Made by a program: the position numbers and the translations under genes. From IMG/VR virus record IMGVR_UViG_3300022858_000173, positions 1-39,743 of that record: a stretch of DNA of 39,743 nt. One strand, given 5' to 3'. Under the pieces are notes generated by a model, which saw only the letters and a list, made by a program, of their open reading frames with translations, made no database searches and was not told the origin of the DNA. Source of the stretch: a virus. The first letter of the stretch is position 1. Every line of letters starts with the position of its first letter. Of this stretch, positions 5,485-29,049 are shown piece by piece.

Positions 5485-5487
5485 AAA

Positions 5488-5506
5488 GAGTCAATTATTA
5501 TGACTC
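5488..5506 (-). promoter_or_regulatory. Leader hairpin before the 210-residue tail gene
   Basis: GAGTCA, a 7-nt loop, then TGACTC form a perfect 6-bp stem on the minus strand, followed by TTT and the ATG at 5484. An AACTCC box lies just upstream (5518-5513). The box plus AGTC-type hairpin recurs at 11874-11900 and 23846-23880. Confidence 0.6.
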
Positions 5507-5527
5507 TCTACGGAGTTCTATATATTT

Positions 5528-5554
5528 ATTATACCACATTTTTAAGTTATCCAA
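5528..5554 (-). promoter_or_regulatory. Extended -10 promoter for distal tail genes
   Basis: TGTGGTATAAT ends at 5528 (TATAAT 5533-5528). The -35 is weak: TTGGAT at 5554-5549 leaves only 15 nt, so the extended -10 probably carries it. It overlaps the stop of the upstream 804-residue tail gene and starts transcription near 5521. Confidence 0.6.
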
Positions 5555-11612: not shown

Positions 11613-11849
11613 TTATTTTTTAGGTTTATTATTTTTTTCTGCGACATCTTCGACGTTAGATGCCTCTAATTCGTTAGTTTTGGGTGTTTTTAGTGTTTTT
11701 TCCACCTTTTTGGTGTCCTTACTCATTTGCTTGACCAACCCCCTTGAAATCAGCGTATTTGCTGTTTCGTACGGGATCTCCATTTCCACACCCTTTTGGA
11801 CTTTTGGTTGTCCCGGGATATAGAAATCTTCTAAAACTTGTACTTTCAT
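11613..11849 (-). CDS. Small protein with N-terminal DUF7210-like domain
   Basis: A 78-residue protein. The first 40 residues (MKVQVLEDFYIPGQPKVQKG, then ANTLISRGLVKQ) show a short beta barrel-helix pattern in which a ligand-like loop is followed by a helix ending in GLV. Two other genes here, 19332-19577 and 23987-24313, carry the same pattern. The C-terminal half is charged and disordered. Such proteins usually lie between head or tail structural genes of phages and may be minor structural or assembly factors; no function is established. It is first behind the promoter and leader hairpin at 11.87-11.94 kb. Confidence 0.6.
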   Translation of the reverse strand: MKVQVLEDFYIPGQPKVQKGVEMEIPYETANTLISRGLVKQMSKDTKKVEKTLKTPKTNELEASNVEDVAEKNNKPKK

Positions 11850-11873
11850 ATTTTTCTATATTAATAAATAAAA

Positions 11874-11891
11874 AGTCAGCTTTCGCCGACT
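11874..11891 (-). promoter_or_regulatory. Leader hairpin with GAAA loop before the tail tube operon
   Basis: AGTCGGC, a GAAA tetraloop and GCTGACT form a 7-bp stem (one G-U pair) on the minus strand, followed by TTTTTATTT, so it looks like a weak intrinsic terminator. An AACTCC box lies just upstream, at 11902-11897. It is placed between promoter and first gene, as at 5.5 kb. Confidence 0.6.
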
Positions 11892-11912
11892 CTCAAGGAG
11901 TTCTTTTAATAT

Positions 11913-11940
11913 ATTATACCACACTTTATGGTCGTGACAA
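11913..11940 (-). promoter_or_regulatory. Promoter for the tail tube operon
   Basis: TTGTCA at 11940-11935, 16-nt spacer, TATAAT at 11918-11913 with extended -10 TGTGG. It overlaps the 3' end of the tail terminator gene, so structural genes are split into separately started transcripts. Confidence 0.7.
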
Positions 11941-19585: not shown

Positions 19586-21217
19586 TTAGCCAATAGTTGC
19601 TTCACCACCTACGAAATACCAAGCACCTGCTGTAAACAGCAAATGAGCAGAATCTCCAAGATCAGTAAATGTAACAGTTGCGTTAGCACCAGCTAAAGAA
19701 GTTGGTGTCAATATAGCTGTGTCGCCTCCTGCGGTTTCAGCAACATAAGCAATAAACAAATGTTGTCCTTCTGTTCCGTTATCAAGAGTCATTGCATCAC
19801 CAGTACCAGTAGTAGTTATTTCGTGGATTGCTCCAGTAATAGCTACAGCACCAGCGCCTGAAGTTGTAGTAGTTTCAGATGTAACTATTCCACCAGCTAA
19901 ATCAATTATACCAGCACCATCTGGGCTAATAGTAATTGCTCCAGCGGCACCATCAGTAATAGTAATTGATCCTGTGGTTGCATTACCTGTTTGCAATACT
20001 ACATCATTATCTCCAAGTGATCTAAATATACCTTGGGCAGAACCGTCACCAGCTATCATGTTTCCGTAAGAGCCATCGTGAGCCCATCCACCGGCAACAC
20101 CTAATGAGCCAGTACCATTTAATGCTTTAAATCTACCTTGTCCCCATTCTGCGTCGTTAGTGACATCAGTTATAATTCCTGCGATCTGTGCATATTCTAC
20201 TAAATCAACTGGAGTGTCATCGTTGTTTCCAACAAATTTGACATAACCAATTTCATCATTAGCGGCTGCACTAGTAGATACTTGTGTGAGCGTAATTGCT
20301 GCACCCTCTGCACCATCATCTTCACGAGTTACACCAATTGAGCCAGATGCACCATTAACTGTAAATTGAGCGTTTGTTGGATATGCACCACTGCCATCTT
20401 GTACAGATACTGATAATCCACCAACCTCAGCTCCGTCGGCTGGGTCTACAATTCCAAATTCAATTTTGCCATAATCAACAATGCTGGCAGCATCACTTTG
20501 TCCTCTACCAATTAAGGCACCAACAGCGTCGAGCGCGGCTGGAGTAGCTGATACATGATCTAAGATCAAAGATGAACCGGTGGCCGTATCGTTTGTTGCT
20601 CTGATAATTTTACCAGAAGCTAATACTCCGACAGTAGCTACACCACCATTTGTCATTGTTAATTCTCCACTAATTGCTTTAAAATTTGCTGTACCAGCAC
20701 CTGTACCTATCATTATTTCGGTATCTACTATGTTGGTAACTGTGGCAGTTTCAAGATCAAGAGCTTCAATAGTTGTGGTACCATCATTCGCCATTGTTAC
20801 GTCACTACTCAATGCGACAGATGTTATTGTAGTTGCATTACCAATTAATACTTTAGTATCACCAGAAGCATCAAATGCTGCGGCTTTACTTGAAGCATTA
20901 CCTAACAATACACTACCTTCTGCTAGAGCAATTTCGGTTGGAGTAATTGTATCTAGTGCTTCAAATGAAGACACTGTGGTTGTACCAGTATTTCTATAAA
21001 TACCCTCTGTGCCAGCACTGGCATCGGTCTTAATAAAAATACACCCTTTTGAAAAACCGGCTTCGGACCCCGGTACACTTGTACCAGTAGCACGCAAAAC
21101 ATTATCAGAACTATCTTTTTCAATGACAGTTACTGCGGTTGTATCGGGTGTTTCTGAGTTACCAATGGGCTGAAATAATTTTGCAGACACCTTGGTTCTG
21201 TATTTTCTATAAGTCAT
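19586..21217 (-). CDS. Repetitive beta-rich fibre protein next to the capsid gene
   Basis: A 543-residue protein extremely rich in Ala, Gly, Thr, Ser and Asp. Residues about 95-200 show repeats of the form 'G.VLLGNA.....AF...GDTKVLIGNATTITSVALS', with recurring DGTTTIEAL and GGVATVGVL turns, as in head or tail fibres with stacked beta repeats. The end (EGQHLFIAYVAETAGGDTAI ... LLFTAGAWYFVGGEATIG) looks like a compact C-terminal cap. It immediately follows the major capsid gene, which favours a head fibre over a tail fibre. Codon and amino-acid bias towards GCA/ACA/GGT reflect the repeats rather than transfer. Confidence 0.58.
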   Translation of the reverse strand: MTYRKYRTKVSAKLFQPIGNSETPDTTAVTVIEKDSSDNVLRATGTSVPGSEAGFSKGCIFIKTDASAGTEGIYRNTGTTTVSSFEALDTITPTEIALAEGSVLLGNASSKAAAFDASGDTKVLIGNATTITSVALSSDVTMANDGTTTIEALDLETATVTNIVDTEIMIGTGAGTANFKAISGELTMTNGGVATVGVLASGKIIRATNDTATGSSLILDHVSATPAALDAVGALIGRGQSDAASIVDYGKIEFGIVDPADGAEVGGLSVSVQDGSGAYPTNAQFTVNGASGSIGVTREDDGAEGAAITLTQVSTSAAANDEIGYVKFVGNNDDTPVDLVEYAQIAGIITDVTNDAEWGQGRFKALNGTGSLGVAGGWAHDGSYGNMIAGDGSAQGIFRSLGDNDVVLQTGNATTGSITITDGAAGAITISPDGAGIIDLAGGIVTSETTTTSGAGAVAITGAIHEITTTGTGDAMTLDNGTEGQHLFIAYVAETAGGDTAILTPTSLAGANATVTFTDLGDSAHLLFTAGAWYFVGGEATIG

Positions 21218-21289
21218 AATTTTTCTATCAAGGGAGTTTTGTTTTGCCCTACGGACTGGCGGACTCCCACACCGCTACTTTAGATAATT

Positions 21290-22228
21290 CTACGCTACTG
21301 CGTTTTCGATGAAATAAGCTAGATTTACATCAAACATGTTCTGATCATAGCTATATCTCTGTCTTACCACGTCTGACAATTTTGGTTCTTCACGATAGGT
21401 ATCTACTTTTCTTGATACATCGAATAGAGTTAGACCAAATGTTGCCTTCATCAATGTTGGTCGAGGTGTACGGTAAATCAACCAAGCGTGTTTGCCCCAA
21501 ACATCTGCTAAACTATCAGTTTGTCCTTCATCGGCTGAGTTATATACTGCATCTGCAATATAAACATCTTCTAATCTGAAATGTTTCTTTAGGAAAGAAG
21601 TAAAAGCGTCTTCGCCTAATTGACCACCATTTGTGTATTTAACTTGTTCACGAACATCTGGATGATCAATCAATTTGATGTAAGTTGCATAACTTAATAC
21701 CATTACGTTTGGTTTTTGAACTGCTGCTGTACGCATTGCGTTGATACCAGTTCTAATATCTCCCAATGGATCTGAATTTACATAATCACTCCATTGTGAT
21801 GTGCCTGACAAAGTTGTATAACTTGTCATTACACTATTATCTGACATAGTAGTTGCCAATGCTTTTTCTTGGTTGATCCAAATAGCATCCATCAAAAATT
21901 CTACTGCATCTCTCTTTGGATCGTATGGATCGTCAGTGTTATCTCTCATTTCATCTGGTACAAGTTTTTCTAGTGATCTTTCACGACATAGATATTCGCC
22001 TTGTGATACACTGTAATCCATGCTCATTGCACGTGTACCCGGAGCGCGGAAGATTTGGTCTGTATAAGTACGTAGATTCTCTTTGCCGTACTGTGCATAT
22101 TTACCTGATTTTTCTTTGACTTTTAATGTTGGCAAGATTTTTTCACAGATATAATTCTCATTTTTATACATTTGTGAGAATTGTGACAATATCTTATCAA
22201 CTTTTGCGTCGCCTAGTTTAGGATTCAT
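21290..22228 (-). CDS. Major capsid protein (HK97 fold)
   Basis: A 312-residue protein placed after protease/scaffold and cement genes, the standard head order. The sequence fits the GpE-like branch of the HK97 fold: an early helix (DKILSQFSQMYKNENYICEK), an E-loop and spine region (AVEFLMDAIWINQEKALATT), an A-domain strand (NVMVLSYATYIKLIDHPDVR), and a final QNMFDVNLAYFIENAVA. The motif 'P.W..H..L.Y....P...... G.T' (KHAWLIYRTPRPTLMKATFG) is also typical of this group. No SD precedes the ATG. A stem-containing leader lies 3' of it at 21.22-21.29 kb. Confidence 0.9.
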   Translation of the reverse strand: MNPKLGDAKVDKILSQFSQMYKNENYICEKILPTLKVKEKSGKYAQYGKENLRTYTDQIFRAPGTRAMSMDYSVSQGEYLCRERSLEKLVPDEMRDNTDDPYDPKRDAVEFLMDAIWINQEKALATTMSDNSVMTSYTTLSGTSQWSDYVNSDPLGDIRTGINAMRTAAVQKPNVMVLSYATYIKLIDHPDVREQVKYTNGGQLGEDAFTSFLKKHFRLEDVYIADAVYNSADEGQTDSLADVWGKHAWLIYRTPRPTLMKATFGLTLFDVSRKVDTYREEPKLSDVVRQRYSYDQNMFDVNLAYFIENAVA

Positions 22229-22267: not shown

Positions 22268-22660
22268 CTATGGTGTATCTACTTCTCCGTAAACAAGCAA
22301 TACAGAAAGCAAATCTCCACTATCTCCACTACCCAATGCTTTGGCCATAAATTCTTGGCCTGCTGTTGCTACTACTGCTAGGCCACTTGCGTCCGGTGTA
22401 ATATAATCACCGAATGAAATAGATGCGGCTGCTTTTACTTTTGTGATACCTTGAATACGTACTTGTGCAGTTGCTTCGTTAGTTGATCCGTCTGGTCCAT
22501 TTTGCAATACACCTAGAGAAGAATCAGCTGCACCGGAGAGTACAACTTCTTCACTTGCATCATGCTTAACAATATAATATTGACTTGAACTCAAATCTGT
22601 GACAGTTGGTCGGCTTAAATCTATTTTGCCTTCCTCTGTACTTAGAGTTATATCTGACAT
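22268..22660 (-). CDS. Capsid cement / decoration protein (DUF2190 or gpD-like)
   Basis: A 130-residue small beta protein just upstream of the capsid gene in transcription order. The pattern YYIVKHDASEEVVLSGAADS, LGVLQNGPDGS, AQVRIQGITKVKAAASISFG and DYITPDASG is characteristic of DUF2190-type cement proteins: a repeated 'G.......G.V.V...G...V.A...I..GD.V' logic. These trimers bind the outside of the shell at threefold sites and stabilise it against packaging pressure. It also provides the expected partner for large decoration proteins encoded downstream. Confidence 0.8.
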   Translation of the reverse strand: MSDITLSTEEGKIDLSRPTVTDLSSSQYYIVKHDASEEVVLSGAADSSLGVLQNGPDGSTNEATAQVRIQGITKVKAAASISFGDYITPDASGLAVVATAGQEFMAKALGSGDSGDLLSVLLVYGEVDTP

Positions 22661-22687: not shown

Positions 22688-23827
22688 CTACTTATTTAGT
22701 TCGGACATGGCTTTCTTTTGTGCATCTACAAGATCTAAATCTTTATCTGCTGCCATTAATTCGTTTGTACGATTAACAACTTTTTCTTCCAAGTCTTCGC
22801 CCTCTACTTTTGTTTCGACTTTTGTTGATCCAATTTCACTCAAGTCTACTGTTTTGACAGCTGACATAATTTCATTGAAATTATTCCTCTGTTCTTCGTT
22901 TAGACTTAACATAAAATCTACAATTGATTCTTGTTTCTCTTTGACAACGCCAGTCAAATTAGTTTCTGATAGTACCATTTTTTCTGATACTACTTCACCC
23001 AATTCCTTGCGTTCGATTTTTTCTCGTAGTGTGGCAATTTCTTTATTGCTTTCTCCGAGTTTTTCTTCCAATGTTTCTGCTGTTTTAGCTTTTTCTGCTA
23101 ATTCAGTTTTTTCTTTTTCAGCATCTTCTGCTACTTTAGCTTCGGTTGCTTTTTCCTCTTCTGTTTTTTCCTCTACTTTTGGTTCTTCTGGTTTGGCTTC
23201 AACTTCTGCAACATCTGCTTTAACTTCTTCGGTTTTTTCTTCCTCTGGAAGTTCCTCGAGCATTTGCTTTAAAAGTTCTTTGTCCTCCAAAGAAACGATT
23301 TCTCGTAACTTCATGGATGCTAGGTATTTCTCAAACATATGTTTTTCTTTATTATGTTCACTGAATAAATTATTTAATTCTTCCGACAAAGCCAGAGGGG
23401 TCTGTGCTTTTAGTGCCGGTGTGTTTGTTAACGCTAATCCTATAAATACATTTTTTATTATATCGCCTGATTTGTGATGTGGCCATTCCATTGCTAGTTC
23501 TGCTGATACAAATTTAAAAATCTTTTTTGTAATAGCCTCTTGACCTAGCTCTGTCCATTCTACTGTTGCCATCAATTTTCGACCTTTGATATATAAATTT
23601 TTAACCCAACCCATTGCTTCGCTCCCACGCCTATGTTCTTTGTTTACTTGGATTTCAGTGCCGTAGATATTGTCTTCATAATTCTTGACATAATCCCGGA
23701 GCATTGACATTTCTATTTTCCAATCTCTATCTCTCAACATACCTGTTCGCAAAACTTCCACTTCTGATGTGTCGCCACCATCCTTTAGTTCAATTGTACT
23801 TAGATAGTGTAAAATGTTTTTATCCAT
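22688..23827 (-). CDS. Head maturation protease fused to scaffold (Mu gpI-like)
   Basis: A 379-residue protein. Residues 25-145 match Mu gpI-type proteases: VNKEHRRGSEAMGWVKNLY (His65), MATVEWTELGQEAI, FKFVSAELAMEW (Ser108) and IGLALTNTPALK. His65 and Ser108 are the likely catalytic pair. From residue 150 the protein is a long, very acidic and Lys-rich coiled coil (EEKTEEVKADVAEVEAKPEE), the usual internal scaffold that is degraded during head maturation. The C-terminal 70 residues (VVNRTNELMAADKDLDLVDA) should contact the capsid protein. It lies directly behind a terminator-like leader hairpin and the three-way-junction element. Confidence 0.85.
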   Translation of the reverse strand: MDKNILHYLSTIELKDGGDTSEVEVLRTGMLRDRDWKIEMSMLRDYVKNYEDNIYGTEIQVNKEHRRGSEAMGWVKNLYIKGRKLMATVEWTELGQEAITKKIFKFVSAELAMEWPHHKSGDIIKNVFIGLALTNTPALKAQTPLALSEELNNLFSEHNKEKHMFEKYLASMKLREIVSLEDKELLKQMLEELPEEEKTEEVKADVAEVEAKPEEPKVEEKTEEEKATEAKVAEDAEKEKTELAEKAKTAETLEEKLGESNKEIATLREKIERKELGEVVSEKMVLSETNLTGVVKEKQESIVDFMLSLNEEQRNNFNEIMSAVKTVDLSEIGSTKVETKVEGEDLEEKVVNRTNELMAADKDLDLVDAQKKAMSELNK

Positions 23828-23845
23828 ATTTTTCTATAATTAAAA

Positions 23846-23865
23846 AAGTCGGTATTATCCGACTT
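23846..23865 (-). promoter_or_regulatory. Terminator-like leader hairpin before the protease/scaffold gene
   Basis: AAGTCGG, a 6-nt loop and CCGACTT form a perfect 7-bp stem with TTTTT following on the minus strand, as in an intrinsic terminator or attenuator. An AACTTC box lies at 23877-23872. It sits 19 nt before the protease ATG. It belongs to the family of AGTC-containing leader hairpins at 5.49 and 11.88 kb. Confidence 0.65.
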
Positions 23866-23881
23866 TCTATGAAGTTCTTAC

Positions 23882-23972
23882 ATCCTATCCTCTCACCCTA
23901 TGTCAAAACATAAGGTGCAATAATCATTATCTTTGTTGGACATGCAATAAACAAAGAGTGAGAGGATAGGAT
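23882..23972. other. Perfect three-way-junction element
   Basis: A 15-bp perfect stem, P1, joins ATCCTATCCTCTCAC (23882-23896) to its inverse copy at 23958-23972. Inside lie two further hairpins that abut P1 without any gap: P2 (23897-23903 with 23908-23915, 7 bp, one bulged A, 4-nt loop) and P3 (23930-23937 with 23950-23957, 8 bp, 12-nt loop). A 14-nt linker joins P2 and P3. TGCAATAA occurs both in the linker and in the P3 loop. No gene lies in 23828-23986. It could act as RNA in the head transcript or as a DNA cruciform. It is not a tRNA. Confidence 0.8.
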
Positions 23973-23986
23973 TTTAAATTGTTTTT

Positions 23987-24313
23987 TTATTCGATGTATC
24001 CTAATTTCAATAATTGTTTTGCATCTCGCTCATTAATATCATATCTCTTACCTGCCTTGTAAGTTTCCCCGTTGTGTTTTACATTGCGAAGTGCTTTGTA
24101 TTTTCCTTTTGCGTTTGTTTTTACAGTATCTGTTCTTCTAGCTTCTGCTTGTTCTTCTAATGATACTAATTTTTCTGTCTCATCTATTACTTTATCCTCA
24201 CTGTGAATAGCCCAGAGTTCTGATAATTTTGGAAGTCCTGACGCATGGTGGAATTCAACCCCACGCTTTGTCAACTCTTCTTTTAATTGTTCGAGAGTTA
24301 GTTCTTCTGACAT
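23987..24313 (-). CDS. HeH/SAP-like plus DUF7210-like small protein
   Basis: A 108-residue protein. The N-terminal 40 residues (LTLEQLKEELTKRGVEFHHA) form a helix-extended loop-helix of the SAP/HeH kind that usually binds DNA or protein. The C-terminal 40 residues (YKALRNVKHNGETYKAGKRY, then LLKLGYIE) repeat the DUF7210-like pattern seen at 11613-11849 and 19332-19577. The start at 24313 is preferred: an upstream ATG would add a hydrophobic stretch overlapping the Com-like gene in another frame. It lies between the portal cluster and the three-way junction. Function unknown; a head assembly accessory is plausible. Confidence 0.62.
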   Translation of the reverse strand: MSEELTLEQLKEELTKRGVEFHHASGLPKLSELWAIHSEDKVIDETEKLVSLEEQAEARRTDTVKTNAKGKYKALRNVKHNGETYKAGKRYDINERDAKQLLKLGYIE

Positions 24314-24323
24314 AGTTTTTAAG

Positions 24324-24527
24324 TTATTTATTAACTGTAATATTATTATAACATGTTTTCCTTTGAAAATCAAACTTATCCACAACCTTGCAATTTCCAT
24401 GGTCGCAAAAAATAGCATTTACTGTACCACATTTATTATTGCGACACTTGATTTCTACTAATCCCTTTTCTATTTCGTAAAATAAAAGAGTCTTTTTACA
24501 TTTGACGCATGAACATTTTACAAGCAT
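24324..24527 (-). CDS. com: Com-like zinc-finger protein
   Basis: A 67-residue protein like the Mu Com family: an N-terminal pair CVKCKKTLLF, then LVEIKCRNNKCGTVNAI, which corresponds to Com's 'C..C...L........IEIKCPRCG..N' finger. Mu Com binds mom mRNA and opens a translation-blocking stem. Here no Mom-like DNA-modification gene was recognised, so the target must be something else, and a structured element lies 350 nt downstream. Two more Cys (FCDHGNC) may bind a second zinc or be unused. It follows the portal gene by 10 nt. The family call is fairly good; the RNA target is unknown. Confidence 0.65.
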   Translation of the reverse strand: MLVKCSCVKCKKTLLFYEIEKGLVEIKCRNNKCGTVNAIFCDHGNCKVVDKFDFQRKTCYNNITVNK

Positions 24528-24537
24528 GTAATTGATG

Positions 24538-26856
24538 TTATTTATTTAGTCTTTTTGCTATTTCTTTTTTGGCTTCTTGTGATTGCTTGGTGTTGGTTGG
24601 TTTTTTGATATTCTTAAAACTGTTTATTACTGGTTTGCCCCCAACCTTGTCAAATCTTGCTTCAACACTCTTTGGAATTGGGTTTGCCTTTGGTTGTTTT
24701 TCTGATTTGAACACTGGGATCCACACTCCTCGACAGAAACTATGCACCAAATCAAGATTTCTCATTGGATCATCTGGTTTTACTATCCTCTTGTCTAGTG
24801 ATAGACATGTATTGCAAGTTTTGCCATCTATTACCTCACTTCTCTGAAAATAGGATATTAAATTGATATTACTTTCAAATACTAGGCTTCTCCCACGATT
24901 GATATTTTGCCCCACCACAGTCCCAGAGGTGTTTGCTATCAATTTGCTTCCTTTATCGTTTAAATTCCTTTTAAGGGCTGTTTTTATGGCTTTGGCGGTT
25001 GTCCCCGCTATGATTCCGTTCTTTACTATGTCCCTACCAGTCTTTTGCATCTCAAAGGTGTAATTCTCGGCGTATTCTTGGCTTTCAAAGTTCTTTAATG
25101 CCTCTTGTTCTCGTGGGGTTGATGTTGGTTTTACGCCCATTTCTTTGGTTGCTGTCTTTTTGCCTACTTCATAACTTTGTGCTATTGATTTGTTGATTGC
25201 CTTTTTATAGGCTAGTAATCCGCCGAATATCAATGAATTTAAACCGCTAATATCTTTTTTTTCTACTTTCTTTTCAGCACTGTCCACATATTTATCTACC
25301 TCATCATTCGTGGTGCTGATCATCTCCCTTTCGAGTTGCCCCTCGATCTGATTAAAACTCTCATTCAAGAATTTGAAGTCTGTTTTTTCCTCATAGATTG
25401 TAAACTCGCGCGTTGGTTTATATGGTTTTTCTGTCAACAGTTTGTGGTCGTGAATATGCTCCTCATTCTTTTTTAGGTTTTTTTTTTCGGCAACTTTTGG
25501 TTTTGCCGGTTGATTTGGTGCCACTACTGGCATTGGCGGGTTTTTCTTTAATTCCCTATCAATCTCCTTGTCTTCTTCATATTCTTTTTCCATTATTTCC
25601 ATGTCTTCTTCGTTTATTTCTGGTAAATCAAAAGTGTTACGGGTCCATTGCTTGATCTTAGGGTCTTTATCGACTAGCCCTGCATTAGTAAGTGATGATA
25701 ATACATCGCTCATTTCCTTGTAATCAATATCACCTAATGGATTGTGTCTTAATCTTGCCTTTGGTGCATTGTCCCCAAAATTAAATTTAACTAAATCTTT
25801 TATTACTTGTTTTTCAATCTGTTCTTCTAAATATTTAATCTTCTCCTCGACATTCTTCAAGAAAAATGATGATTGGTCTTTGCTCAATGCAAAACTCCCG
25901 ACCTCTGAACTCCCGAGACTCAAAAACATCGCCAAAACGCTTGTCGTTATTTGACGATTGTGATGTTCTACTGATTTGTCGATTGCGTCACCCTGTGGGT
26001 TTCCGCTTGGTGTTACTAATTCAAATTCTCCATCTTCTTTCTTCCATGGGAATACTAAATATCCTTTTTCATTAGTCCTTATATTGGCCAACATATTTTC
26101 TGCCGCTGATTTTTCGGCTGTACCAAATCCCTCTGGCATATAAAGCGTTGGAATACCCATACCATTCTTCTCGGCTGATATTCCTTGTATTTTATAGAGT
26201 GTATTCTTGTAATAATAATGTTTGTATGCTGATCTTAATATACTTCTACCTGTCACATCGTCGCCTTCTTTATCGTTCGTTAAAATCAAAAGTTTACGTG
26301 CAGGTATTTCTGCATTGCTCTTTGGTGCTGATGGATCATCTGTCATTATCCATTGTTTTATTCCAAATTGCTTTTGTCCTCCCACCTCTATTTGCCAATC
26401 TTGAATTGACCTTGGAATACGTGGTGACAAATCTCTCAACACTACTTGCCCTTTTTCTATTTTAAAAATCTTTTCAAATACATAATGTCCGTATGCTAAA
26501 AATAATAAAGCCTCGCGCACAAAGTCTTTCCAACTTCTCTCCATTCCCTCAAATAAATTTTCTTCCAAAAATTCTACAATCTTTTCATCCTCACACTCAA
26601 TATACCAATCTGTTGCCAAAATTGGAGCGTTAATTGCTCGGAGTACGCCGTCAATCACGCCGTCTGTTCTCATCTGGTCTACTAAATCAATTCTCGCCTC
26701 GTCGCGCCACTCTGCATTCTGCTCATCAAAGAAATAACCGCCATAGCGCTGGGTTCCGCTATCGCCAAAAATTGTCCCCATTTGTTTCAGTGTCAAATCT
26801 TGTACTGGGTACGGTGCATTCTGACCTTGAATATCTTTTTCATTAGCTAATGGCAT
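24538..26856 (-). CDS. Portal protein (Mu gp29 / DUF935-like) fused to a MuF-type C-terminal domain
   Basis: A 772-residue protein. Residues about 20-440 form the portal: YGGYFFDEQNAEWRDEARID, then MRTDGVIDGVLRAINAPIL and DWYIECED, ILTNDKEGDDVTGRSILRSAY, and the clip/crown part up to SALSKDQSSFFLKNVEEKI. A charged linker follows (about 420-490). Residues about 490-730 are a MuF or SPP1 gp7-like domain, closing with RSEVIDGKTCNTCLSLDKRI and HSFCRGVW (Cys681, Cys684, His705, Cys708), the metal-binding signature of that family. In Mu these are two genes. It starts 3 nt after the TerL stop, with no SD. Confidence 0.88.
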   Translation of the reverse strand: MPLANEKDIQGQNAPYPVQDLTLKQMGTIFGDSGTQRYGGYFFDEQNAEWRDEARIDLVDQMRTDGVIDGVLRAINAPILATDWYIECEDEKIVEFLEENLFEGMERSWKDFVREALLFLAYGHYVFEKIFKIEKGQVVLRDLSPRIPRSIQDWQIEVGGQKQFGIKQWIMTDDPSAPKSNAEIPARKLLILTNDKEGDDVTGRSILRSAYKHYYYKNTLYKIQGISAEKNGMGIPTLYMPEGFGTAEKSAAENMLANIRTNEKGYLVFPWKKEDGEFELVTPSGNPQGDAIDKSVEHHNRQITTSVLAMFLSLGSSEVGSFALSKDQSSFFLKNVEEKIKYLEEQIEKQVIKDLVKFNFGDNAPKARLRHNPLGDIDYKEMSDVLSSLTNAGLVDKDPKIKQWTRNTFDLPEINEEDMEIMEKEYEEDKEIDRELKKNPPMPVVAPNQPAKPKVAEKKNLKKNEEHIHDHKLLTEKPYKPTREFTIYEEKTDFKFLNESFNQIEGQLEREMISTTNDEVDKYVDSAEKKVEKKDISGLNSLIFGGLLAYKKAINKSIAQSYEVGKKTATKEMGVKPTSTPREQEALKNFESQEYAENYTFEMQKTGRDIVKNGIIAGTTAKAIKTALKRNLNDKGSKLIANTSGTVVGQNINRGRSLVFESNINLISYFQRSEVIDGKTCNTCLSLDKRIVKPDDPMRNLDLVHSFCRGVWIPVFKSEKQPKANPIPKSVEARFDKVGGKPVINSFKNIKKPTNTKQSQEAKKEIAKRLNK

Positions 26857-26859
26857 ATT

Positions 26860-28428
26860 TTAAAATTTCTTTTTAAATAAGTTTCCGGCAATCGTGGATG
26901 CTCTATCTTTATTATACACTATTTCTTCGCTTTGTTCAAAATTTACGTTTGTATATGATAATTCTAAGGCTCCCATTAAGCTGTCGGCTCTATCATCATG
27001 TTCTAAAACTTCCAGTCCCAAAAACAAAATCTGGTCACGAGTTTTCCTCATCTCTGGTCGCAAATGTACTTCCCCTCTTTCAAACATCGGCTCGAGTGCT
27101 TGCAATCTACCGAGCTTATCCGATCCGTATTTATCCCTGATTGCTTTTGGTCGAGTTCCTTTGATTGGGATATTCTTGTCAAATCCAAATAACTTATTTC
27201 CATGTATTATTGGTTTGCCTTTTAATCCCAAATCTAATTCACCCGCTTTCCAGCTCATTATGTTTTGAAATACTGCCGTCTGGTTCAGGACCTTTTCCAC
27301 GCCGACTACATGTGCTTCTGGGTGTTCTATCCACGTCTTGATCACTTCCTTGGCTTGTTCTGTCTGACTACATCTGCCAGCTTTTTGCACAATTGCGTAT
27401 CTGTGTTTATCTTTTCTAGCCCATTGTAGCACTGTTATGCACCATTCATCGGATGTTGCACTCTCCCCTGCCTGTGGATCCATAAATATAACCTTTTTGT
27501 AGTTCTTCATCACTGGCAATTCTGTGAAGTTGTTGTCGTCTATCCACGCAGGTTTGAAATTGGCCAACTCATCGTTTGTTGGCTCATTCATGTATTCTTG
27601 GGCGAATGATCTACTTCCAGAGTCTTCTCGTATCTGCTCTAGTTTTTCTAAACTAAATCTAGCTGACCATATGCTCTTTTTGTCCTCTATTGCTTTTCTG
27701 AAAATCCCCCCGAACTTATTATAAAACTGTAGTATCTCCGCTTCTTGATGTAGGACTGTCCCAATTAGCTTAATTTTGCCCCTTTCAGCGTCTAAACTAT
27801 TGAATATGACGTTATATAGCCACTCGTGCAATTTCTGCCTTCTCTCGGCTTTTCTGACCTCTTCATCGTCTTCAATATCATCACACACAATCTTGGTCGG
27901 TCTTTGATTTTTAATATTTACACCACGCCCCTTGCCCGCCCCCCTAGCGACTGCATTGACTCCATTTATCGTTTCAAAATGCTTGTTGGTCCACTTCCTG
28001 TCTTTCTTATTCTCTGGTGGCACTAAATCCCCAAATACCGCATGCAATAAATCATTATTTTCTAGCTCTGTTTTGATCCCCTCGAAATGAAAGCCTGCGT
28101 CTGTGAGGGTATTTCCGATATATAGAATTACTGGCTCGGTGCCGTAGACTATGTCGTGGATCGTGTCGAGTTTAATCCACGTTGATTTGGCGTGGCCACG
28201 AGGAAAAACTATGCCACTATGTCCGGGTGCATTGATTGCGTCTAATAAATCTAAATGGCACTCCGGGACGTCGTGAGTGCCTTTGATTATGTGAGGGAAG
28301 AAGTATCTACCAAAAATGTGCAGGTTCTTTTTGCTTTTCAATGTTCTGTATATCCATTGTGCTTGCTCTTGTTTTGGTACTGATTTTAAATCTTCTCTCC
28401 ATTCGTTGTATGGGATATGGGTTGGCAT
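26860..28428 (-). CDS. terL: Terminase large subunit
   Basis: The packaging motor and nuclease, 522 residues. The ATPase has an adapted Walker A, IVFPRGHAKST (about 73-83), an adenine-binding region before it, and Walker B IVCDDIEDDEEV (about 180-191). The RNase H-like nuclease has Asp317 (VIFMDPQAGES), Glu378 (VVGVEKV) and Asp479/Asp482 (LEHDDRADSLMGAL). All acidic residues needed are present, so it should be active. It is followed by the portal after 3 nt and preceded by a 54-residue Cys protein and TerS. No SD is seen before the ATG. Confidence 0.95.
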   Translation of the reverse strand: MPTHIPYNEWREDLKSVPKQEQAQWIYRTLKSKKNLHIFGRYFFPHIIKGTHDVPECHLDLLDAINAPGHSGIVFPRGHAKSTWIKLDTIHDIVYGTEPVILYIGNTLTDAGFHFEGIKTELENNDLLHAVFGDLVPPENKKDRKWTNKHFETINGVNAVARGAGKGRGVNIKNQRPTKIVCDDIEDDEEVRKAERRQKLHEWLYNVIFNSLDAERGKIKLIGTVLHQEAEILQFYNKFGGIFRKAIEDKKSIWSARFSLEKLEQIREDSGSRSFAQEYMNEPTNDELANFKPAWIDDNNFTELPVMKNYKKVIFMDPQAGESATSDEWCITVLQWARKDKHRYAIVQKAGRCSQTEQAKEVIKTWIEHPEAHVVGVEKVLNQTAVFQNIMSWKAGELDLGLKGKPIIHGNKLFGFDKNIPIKGTRPKAIRDKYGSDKLGRLQALEPMFERGEVHLRPEMRKTRDQILFLGLEVLEHDDRADSLMGALELSYTNVNFEQSEEIVYNKDRASTIAGNLFKKKF

Positions 28429-28466: not shown

Positions 28467-28631
28467 TTATGATTCATAATCAATATCATCACTTTCAAAC
28501 AAAGCCTCCTCTTTTCCGCATCTACTACATTTTTTCCAACTAAAAAACTCACCTTCTTTTTCAAAAACTTTCCATTTGTGTATATCAAAAATATCTAATA
28601 TTTCACAAATCTTCTTTTTTTTAATCTTCAT
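28467..28631 (-). CDS. 54-residue basic protein with a CxxC motif between terS and terL
   Basis: A small gene overlapping the end of terS by 11 nt and ending 39 nt before terL. The product begins MKIKKKKICEILDIFDIHKW and contains WKKCSRCGKEEALF followed by an acidic tail. One Cys pair alone would need a partner, or a dimer, to hold zinc. The position inside the terminase pair, the tight overlap and the lack of other coding explanation for this stretch support it as real. Function unknown; it may be a zinc-binding accessory to packaging. Confidence 0.6.
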   Translation of the reverse strand: MKIKKKKICEILDIFDIHKWKVFEKEGEFFSWKKCSRCGKEEALFESDDIDYES

Positions 28632-29049
28632 ATTTCTTCGCTCGTTTATCCGCTTCTTCGGAGAAGTTGATTGTTATTGTCCCGGGTGCATTTCCACCGA
28701 ACTCAACTTTCTTTTTCCTCGTCAAGTAATCCATTCCATTGTTGTAGCTTCCTTTGGCGTGTTCTACAACTTTCTGACGGATAGCTAAAACTGGACGTTC
28801 TCTTAATAAGCTTAATTCCTCAAAGAGTTTAGGGTTTTTCTTTTTCCAATTATAAAATGTTTGGATTGAAATCTCCAAGTAACAACATACTTCCTCAACA
28901 CTAGCGTCGAATGAAAATACTTGTTTTAACTTTTGGATGGCATTATTATCGAGCTTACTAACTCCTTCGCCTATCTTTTTATTGATTGATGCTCTTTTCT
29001 TTGGTCTGCCACCTTTGTTTTTGACCTTTGTTTTTTGGTTCTTGACCAT
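28621..29049 (-). CDS. terS: Terminase small subunit
   Basis: DNA-recognition subunit of the packaging motor, 142 residues. The N-terminus is very basic with GGRPKKRAS, similar to an AT-hook. A helix-turn-helix follows (FDASVEEVCCYLEISIQTFY then NWKKKNP), which is the standard TerS DNA-binding fold. The central region (LLRERPVLAIRQKVVEHAKG) should form the oligomerisation helices, and the C-terminus (FSEEADKRAKKYED) likely contacts TerL. It lies one small gene upstream of terL. No SD is seen. Confidence 0.82.
   Translation of the reverse strand: MVKNQKTKVKNKGGRPKKRASINKKIGEGVSKLDNNAIQKLKQVFSFDASVEEVCCYLEISIQTFYNWKKKNPKLFEELSLLRERPVLAIRQKVVEHAKGSYNNGMDYLTRKKKVEFGGNAPGTITINFSEEADKRAKKYED

Follow-up and report, generated by a model that had tools for sequence, protein, structure and literature searches.

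The window analysed here is the IMG/VR virus record IMGVR_UViG_3300022858_000173, a stretch of 39,743 bases with a G+C content of 36%. All recognised genes lie on its minus strand, so that mRNA carries the minus-strand version of the element described below. The packaging and head genes and the promoter-like site among them are arranged as follows.

28621-29049, minus strand, small terminase
26860-28428, minus strand, large terminase
24538-26856, minus strand, portal fused to a Mu F-like domain
24324-24527, minus strand, Com-like zinc-finger protein (Com-like profile of the relatives, E 2e-9)
24345-24373, minus strand, promoter-like TTGATT-17-TATAAT with a TG extension, before the DUF7210 gene (from sequence)
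23987-24316, minus strand, DUF7210 protein, first gene of the presumed head transcript (Pfam DUF7210, 1.1e-9)
22688-23827, minus strand, Mu I-like head maturation protease, the gene served by the head leader
22268-22660, minus strand, cement/scaffold protein, 3' of the protease
21290-22228, minus strand, major capsid protein

The promoter-like site before the DUF7210 gene is also found in relatives L001, L004 and L005. Shine-Dalgarno sequences are scarce in the window: about 10 of 57 gene starts have even a loose match. Relatives were compared at two distances, close ones that carry the junction (87-98% capsid identity to the window) and more distant ones (56-68%). A prophage and host search among genome contigs returned zero relatives.

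The intergenic gap of 159 nt that follows the DUF7210 stop codon holds a three-way junction.

23882-23972, minus strand, three-way-junction RNA domain between the DUF7210 stop codon and the candidate Com-type switch (folding and comparison)
23882-23896 with 23958-23972, minus strand, P1 stem, 15 bp, perfect
23930-23937 with 23950-23957, minus strand, P2 hairpin, 8 bp
23897-23903 with 23908-23914, minus strand, P3 hairpin, 7 bp
23916-23929, minus strand, linker, 14 nt

The original prediction gave these coordinates, the perfect 15-bp stem, the hairpins of 7 and 8 bp and the 14-nt linker, all of which hold. Its claim that such an arrangement exceeds chance agrees with both simulated genomes and shuffles: the window has a single perfect inverted repeat of 15 bp within 100 nt, 60 simulated genomes together also had just one, and the folding z-scores of the element are -4.4 on the plus strand and -5.6 on the minus strand, with none of 200 shuffles as stable. 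P3 contains one U.G pair on the minus strand (the plus strand needs a bulge or an A.C mismatch there), and the sense RNA of the window itself is predicted to favour a rod. This minimum free energy fold, which keeps P1, is predicted at -40.3 kcal/mol against -36.0 kcal/mol for the junction, a difference of 4.3 kcal/mol. The hairpins of the sense-strand junction reach pairing probabilities of at least 0.94 in the three related lineages, and the sense RNA is more stable than the antisense in all four junction sequences. P1 stacked on P3 makes a near-continuous duplex of about 22 bp.

The junction occurs in the same gap as four distinct sequences, namely those of the window, the L001 type, the L005/L006 type and L004. 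The compensatory changes by which it had been proposed to judge the structure are found in both P1 and P2 across these four lineages. In a structure-aware comparison, seven pairs are changed on both sides, four in P1 and three in P2, the third of the latter being the P2 tip, which is lost in the window. A plain MAFFT alignment gives five such pairs, and one of 500 shuffles does as well. G.U cells outnumber A.C cells on the sense strand by 10 to 4 in the structure-aware comparison. Two P1 pairs are broken in L001, and some variants in L001 P1 and L004 P3 form G.U only on the plus strand. The P2 loop and the linker vary freely among relatives. Because pairs have changed on both sides and G.U pairs occur on the sense strand, the sequence comparison supports the junction as a real structured RNA, one of the functions first suggested for it. 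RNAalifold run on the MAFFT alignment prefers the rod as the conserved fold; the junction was kept over the rod because P2 is misaligned there and the extra pairs of the rod have no double changes.

A covariance model finds sense copies at 92-110 bits in only these four lineages, with no further copies in 0.6 Mb of related phage DNA. None of the Rfam 15 covariance models has a match in the window that reaches its gathering score, and the element regions of the window, L004 and L005 yield sub-threshold chance matches only; the junction RNA structure is absent from Rfam. Other candidates were rejected. Exact matches to a P1 arm elsewhere in viral contigs lack the second arm and are due to chance. 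A promoter inside the junction would use the TTGACA of the P3 loop, which is conserved, but the 13 nt to TAGGAT/TAGAAT are too short for sigma-70, and it was dismissed as the principal explanation. The repeat TGCAATAA, shared by the linker and the P3 loop and singled out in the original prediction, is kept in no relative and looks incidental, and a role for it was dismissed since it is not conserved.

Directly downstream of the junction, at about 23843-23875, lies a conserved pair of hairpins that the original prediction had missed. The leader DNA, used as a query against the window, matched weakly at a second place, 11847-11905, and this led to a recurring module: AGAACTYC with a short hairpin (I) and a longer hairpin (II) that share one arm, just before start codons. 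The window holds three copies, at 23875, 11901 and 5516. The copies at 11901 and 5516 come after a promoter and the copy at 23875 after the junction.

23862-23875, minus strand, head leader hairpin I, ACUU-CAUAGA-AAGU, loop C-N3-GA, U-A closing pair
23841-23868, minus strand, head leader hairpin II with T-run, terminator-like, sharing AAGU with hairpin I
11871-11940, minus strand, tail-tube leader (promoter and hairpins I and II)
11940-11913, minus strand, tail-tube promoter TTGTCA-16-TATAAT
11901-11889, minus strand, tail-tube hairpin I, ACUC-CUUGA-GAGU
11894-11871, minus strand, tail-tube hairpin II, terminator-like
5485-5533, minus strand, fibre-gene leader (TATAAT and hairpins I and II)
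5533-5528, minus strand, fibre TATAAT
5516-5503, minus strand, fibre hairpin I, ACUC-CGUAGA-GAGU
5509-5485, minus strand, fibre hairpin II, predicted stem extending into the AUG

Hairpin I with an overlapping hairpin II is present in 3 of the 57 leaders of the window against 0.03 expected, and none of 400 shuffle sets reaches three; the chance probability of hairpin I in a single head leader is about 0.02-0.04. Taken by itself, hairpin II is predicted to be the stronger of the two, which would leave the switch off by default. It is predicted to take in the start codon in the fibre leader, whereas in the head and tail-tube leaders it is terminator-like and ends before the AUG. The tail-tube switch (11850-11925) is absent from close relatives L115-L118, which keep the promoter-like site; this suggests a recent acquisition by the window, with the head leader as a possible source.

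Two further structures lie elsewhere in the window. Between the HNH gene (1558-1947) and the genes upstream, a 40-nt inverted repeat (83% complementary) at 1887-1985 makes a long stem, possibly a terminator. A leader hairpin, GGGAGT...ACTCCC (21218-21289), precedes the gene at 19586-21217; in L032 and L036, the related gene has a different hairpin in front.

Com, a small regulator, is known above all as the activator of the DNA-modification gene of phage Mu. Its published target is CC(N)2-3GAG, a hairpin with a C-N2-3-GA loop (Nowacka et al., PMC6483171), which in the published selection is invariably closed by a C-G pair (PMC6483171). The hairpin of Mu reads AUGC-CUGCGA-GCAU. The fibre and tail-tube hairpins I of the window fit this target fully, including the C-G closing pair. 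The head hairpin I has the Com-type loop but a U-A closing pair, and in the window clade it may be bound with a different affinity than the other two. In the isolates inspected, com mostly precedes a mom or methyltransferase gene, and a Com-type hairpin lies in front of such genes in Mu, B3, JD024 and Phipami28. The com isolates B3, JD024, Phipami28 and Moraxella Mcat3 have two hairpins in tandem, and the strict hairpin rule finds none in Chuche, another com-bearing isolate. The tandem hairpins of L108, L111, L112 and L113 (B3, JD024, Moraxella Mcat3, Phipami28) are about 20 nt apart and lie upstream of the gene after com, which in Mcat3 has no known function.

The assignment of the window protein to the Com family is probable and is linked through relatives, not directly. 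A Com profile built from isolates ranks the Com-like genes of the relatives first, and a profile of the relatives, built without the window clade, detects the window gene (E 2e-9); the isolate-only profile fails to reach the window protein. PHROG matches among eight members are translational regulator (five) and gpCom (four), and the Com-like proteins of L036 and L038 are at or near the PF10122 cut-off. A tblastn search of isolate phages worked with Mu Com, and two environmental Com proteins matched almost nothing there.

The distribution of the gene follows that of the hairpins. The module precedes the first head-unit gene in L027, L031, L032, L036 and L038 and is absent from that position in L025, L028, L029, L035 and L037; the Com-like gene is found in the relatives with the module and not in those without it. 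Hairpin I is present in the head leaders of all seven com-bearing lineages and in none of the six com-less ones when a mismatch is allowed (L027 and L038 have one each), and in five of the seven by the strict rule. The Fisher probability is 0.0006 for the relaxed and 0.016 for the strict count, and the lineages are not wholly independent of each other, L032 being close to L036. One of the com-bearing records, G028, was found after the rule had been formed, via its fibre gene. Its head leader contains AAGAGCTCCTCGAGAGCC and the hairpin GCUC-CUCGA-GAGC; its second hairpin is separate and strong and shares no arm with hairpin I. The com-less G034 has the promoter and lacks the module. Hairpins I of other relatives read AGUC-CCCGA-GGCU, AGCC-CCUAGA-GGCU and GGUUC-CAUGA-GAGCC. 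In every module leader except G028, hairpins I and II share an arm and are predicted to be mutually exclusive. Hairpin II is terminator-like in the head leader of the window clade, the tail-tube leader of the window, L027, L031 and L038; in the fibre leaders, L032 and L036, it reaches up to the AUG or takes it in.

These leaders resemble the com-mom system of Mu in having a Com-family protein and a short C-N2-3-GA hairpin that is followed closely by a second one at the start region, and the fibre hairpin II is predicted to take in the AUG much as the inhibitor hairpin of mom takes in its start codon. Unlike in Mu, the genes concerned are head, tail and fibre genes rather than mom, and a promoter or structured domain is found immediately 5' of the switch. 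In the head and tail-tube leaders, hairpin II resembles a terminator; in the head leader, hairpin I is closed by U-A.

The earlier suggestion of a Com target applies to the leader as a whole, where the hairpin at 23862-23875 is the candidate, but not to the junction, which has no CC(N)2-3GAG. The junction lies after the DUF7210 stop codon, a few nucleotides before hairpin I. In other leaders, the slot 5' of the switch is taken by a promoter (several leaders) or by a stable hairpin (L031). The fibre leader of L122 has a tRNA-Met (CAU) gene (2884-2959) between the promoter and the Com-type hairpin; the window and L121 have no tRNA-Met in theirs. The junction is not a general requirement, since in some com-bearing lineages hairpin I is preceded by no structured domain.

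The reading that we prefer, and to which we give an even chance, is that of a Com-controlled head-operon leader in which the junction, a real RNA, serves on the 5' side as an insulating or processing domain peculiar to this clade. Judging from the sequence, transcription would enter at the promoter before the DUF7210 gene. Past the stop codon of this gene, the RNA would fold into the stable junction, as the comparison supports, and then into one of two exclusive hairpins, the weak hairpin I with its Com-type loop or the strong hairpin II, which is predicted to end transcription or to hide the start region. By analogy with Mu Com, the Com-like protein, as it accumulates, would hold hairpin I and so prevent hairpin II, and the head genes would be turned on. 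The junction would most likely insulate or define the 5' side of the switch, either by stopping mispairing with upstream sequence or by serving as a nuclease site. This is the least certain step, and the insulating or processing role, taken alone, is rated as less likely than not.

A processing role does not require Com. The junction may be a site of RNase III type that parts the upstream message from that of the head genes and has a stabilising role, independently of Com. Phage T7 mRNAs have RNase III processing sites, and like these, the junction places a long duplex between cistrons of a late phage mRNA; it differs in its branched form, a 15-bp stem bearing two hairpins, and its cleavage is hypothetical. 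The duplex is maintained in the message strand, its length is compatible with RNase III processing, it sits exactly between two cistrons, and the equivalent slot in another leader, that of L122, holds a tRNA, itself a processed RNA. Yet a processing site does nothing to explain the restriction to this clade, and with a terminator-like hairpin directly after it, few transcripts may extend across unless they read through. We hold this possibility to be rather unlikely. Regarding DNA packaging, which the original prediction had also raised, the packaging RNA of phi29 is a small phage RNA with a three-way junction that works with a phi29-type packaging ATPase. The element shares the three-way junction; it lies in the middle of the head operon, has no match in Rfam and accompanies an ordinary terminase of small and large subunits in place of such an ATPase. 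A packaging RNA is therefore not supported.

Two other possibilities place the junction in direct control of the genes downstream, and we regard both as quite improbable. A cis-acting RNA of the put kind would let the polymerase read through the following and later terminators without a protein. The put RNAs of HK022, two stem-loops of about 70 nt that contact RNA polymerase, antiterminate in this way (PMC9378689), and the junction is likewise a stable structured phage RNA of similar size (about 90 nt), cis-acting if at all, directly before a terminator-like hairpin. Its architecture differs from the two stem-loops of put with their defined polymerase contact: it has a long closing stem and loops that are variable rather than conserved. 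The layout of a structured domain followed by a terminator would also suit an aptamer of the riboswitch kind, bound by a ligand or by a protein such as the Com-like or capsid protein; the lack of the Com motif in the junction and the variation of its P2 loop and linker argue against this, as does the lack of a match in Rfam. Finally, the inverted repeat exists on both strands, and it could act as DNA, either as a cruciform in packaging or replication, as originally considered, or as a small mobile element with terminal repeats. The L001 P1 and L004 P3 variants that are G.U on the plus strand would agree with this. The wobble counts, which favour RNA of the coding strand, the covariation of the internal hairpins, and the confinement of all copies in 0.6 Mb of related phage DNA to one fixed site in four lineages leave a DNA-level element with very little probability.

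A wider reading extends the Com-controlled leader to the whole group. By analogy, Com-family proteins could be a master switch for late structural genes across a set of uncultivated phages, in which bound leader hairpins would block premature termination and start-codon occlusion, and the junction would belong specifically to the head-operon form of this switch; we consider this generalisation possible but rather doubtful. The literature found describes Com only as an activator of the mom gene of Mu. If the wider reading is true, the role of Com would extend to the timing of virion assembly, with switches before capsid, tail and fibre genes, a possible protein-controlled terminator would join the known RNA switches, and a simple sequence rule would be at hand for finding Com targets.
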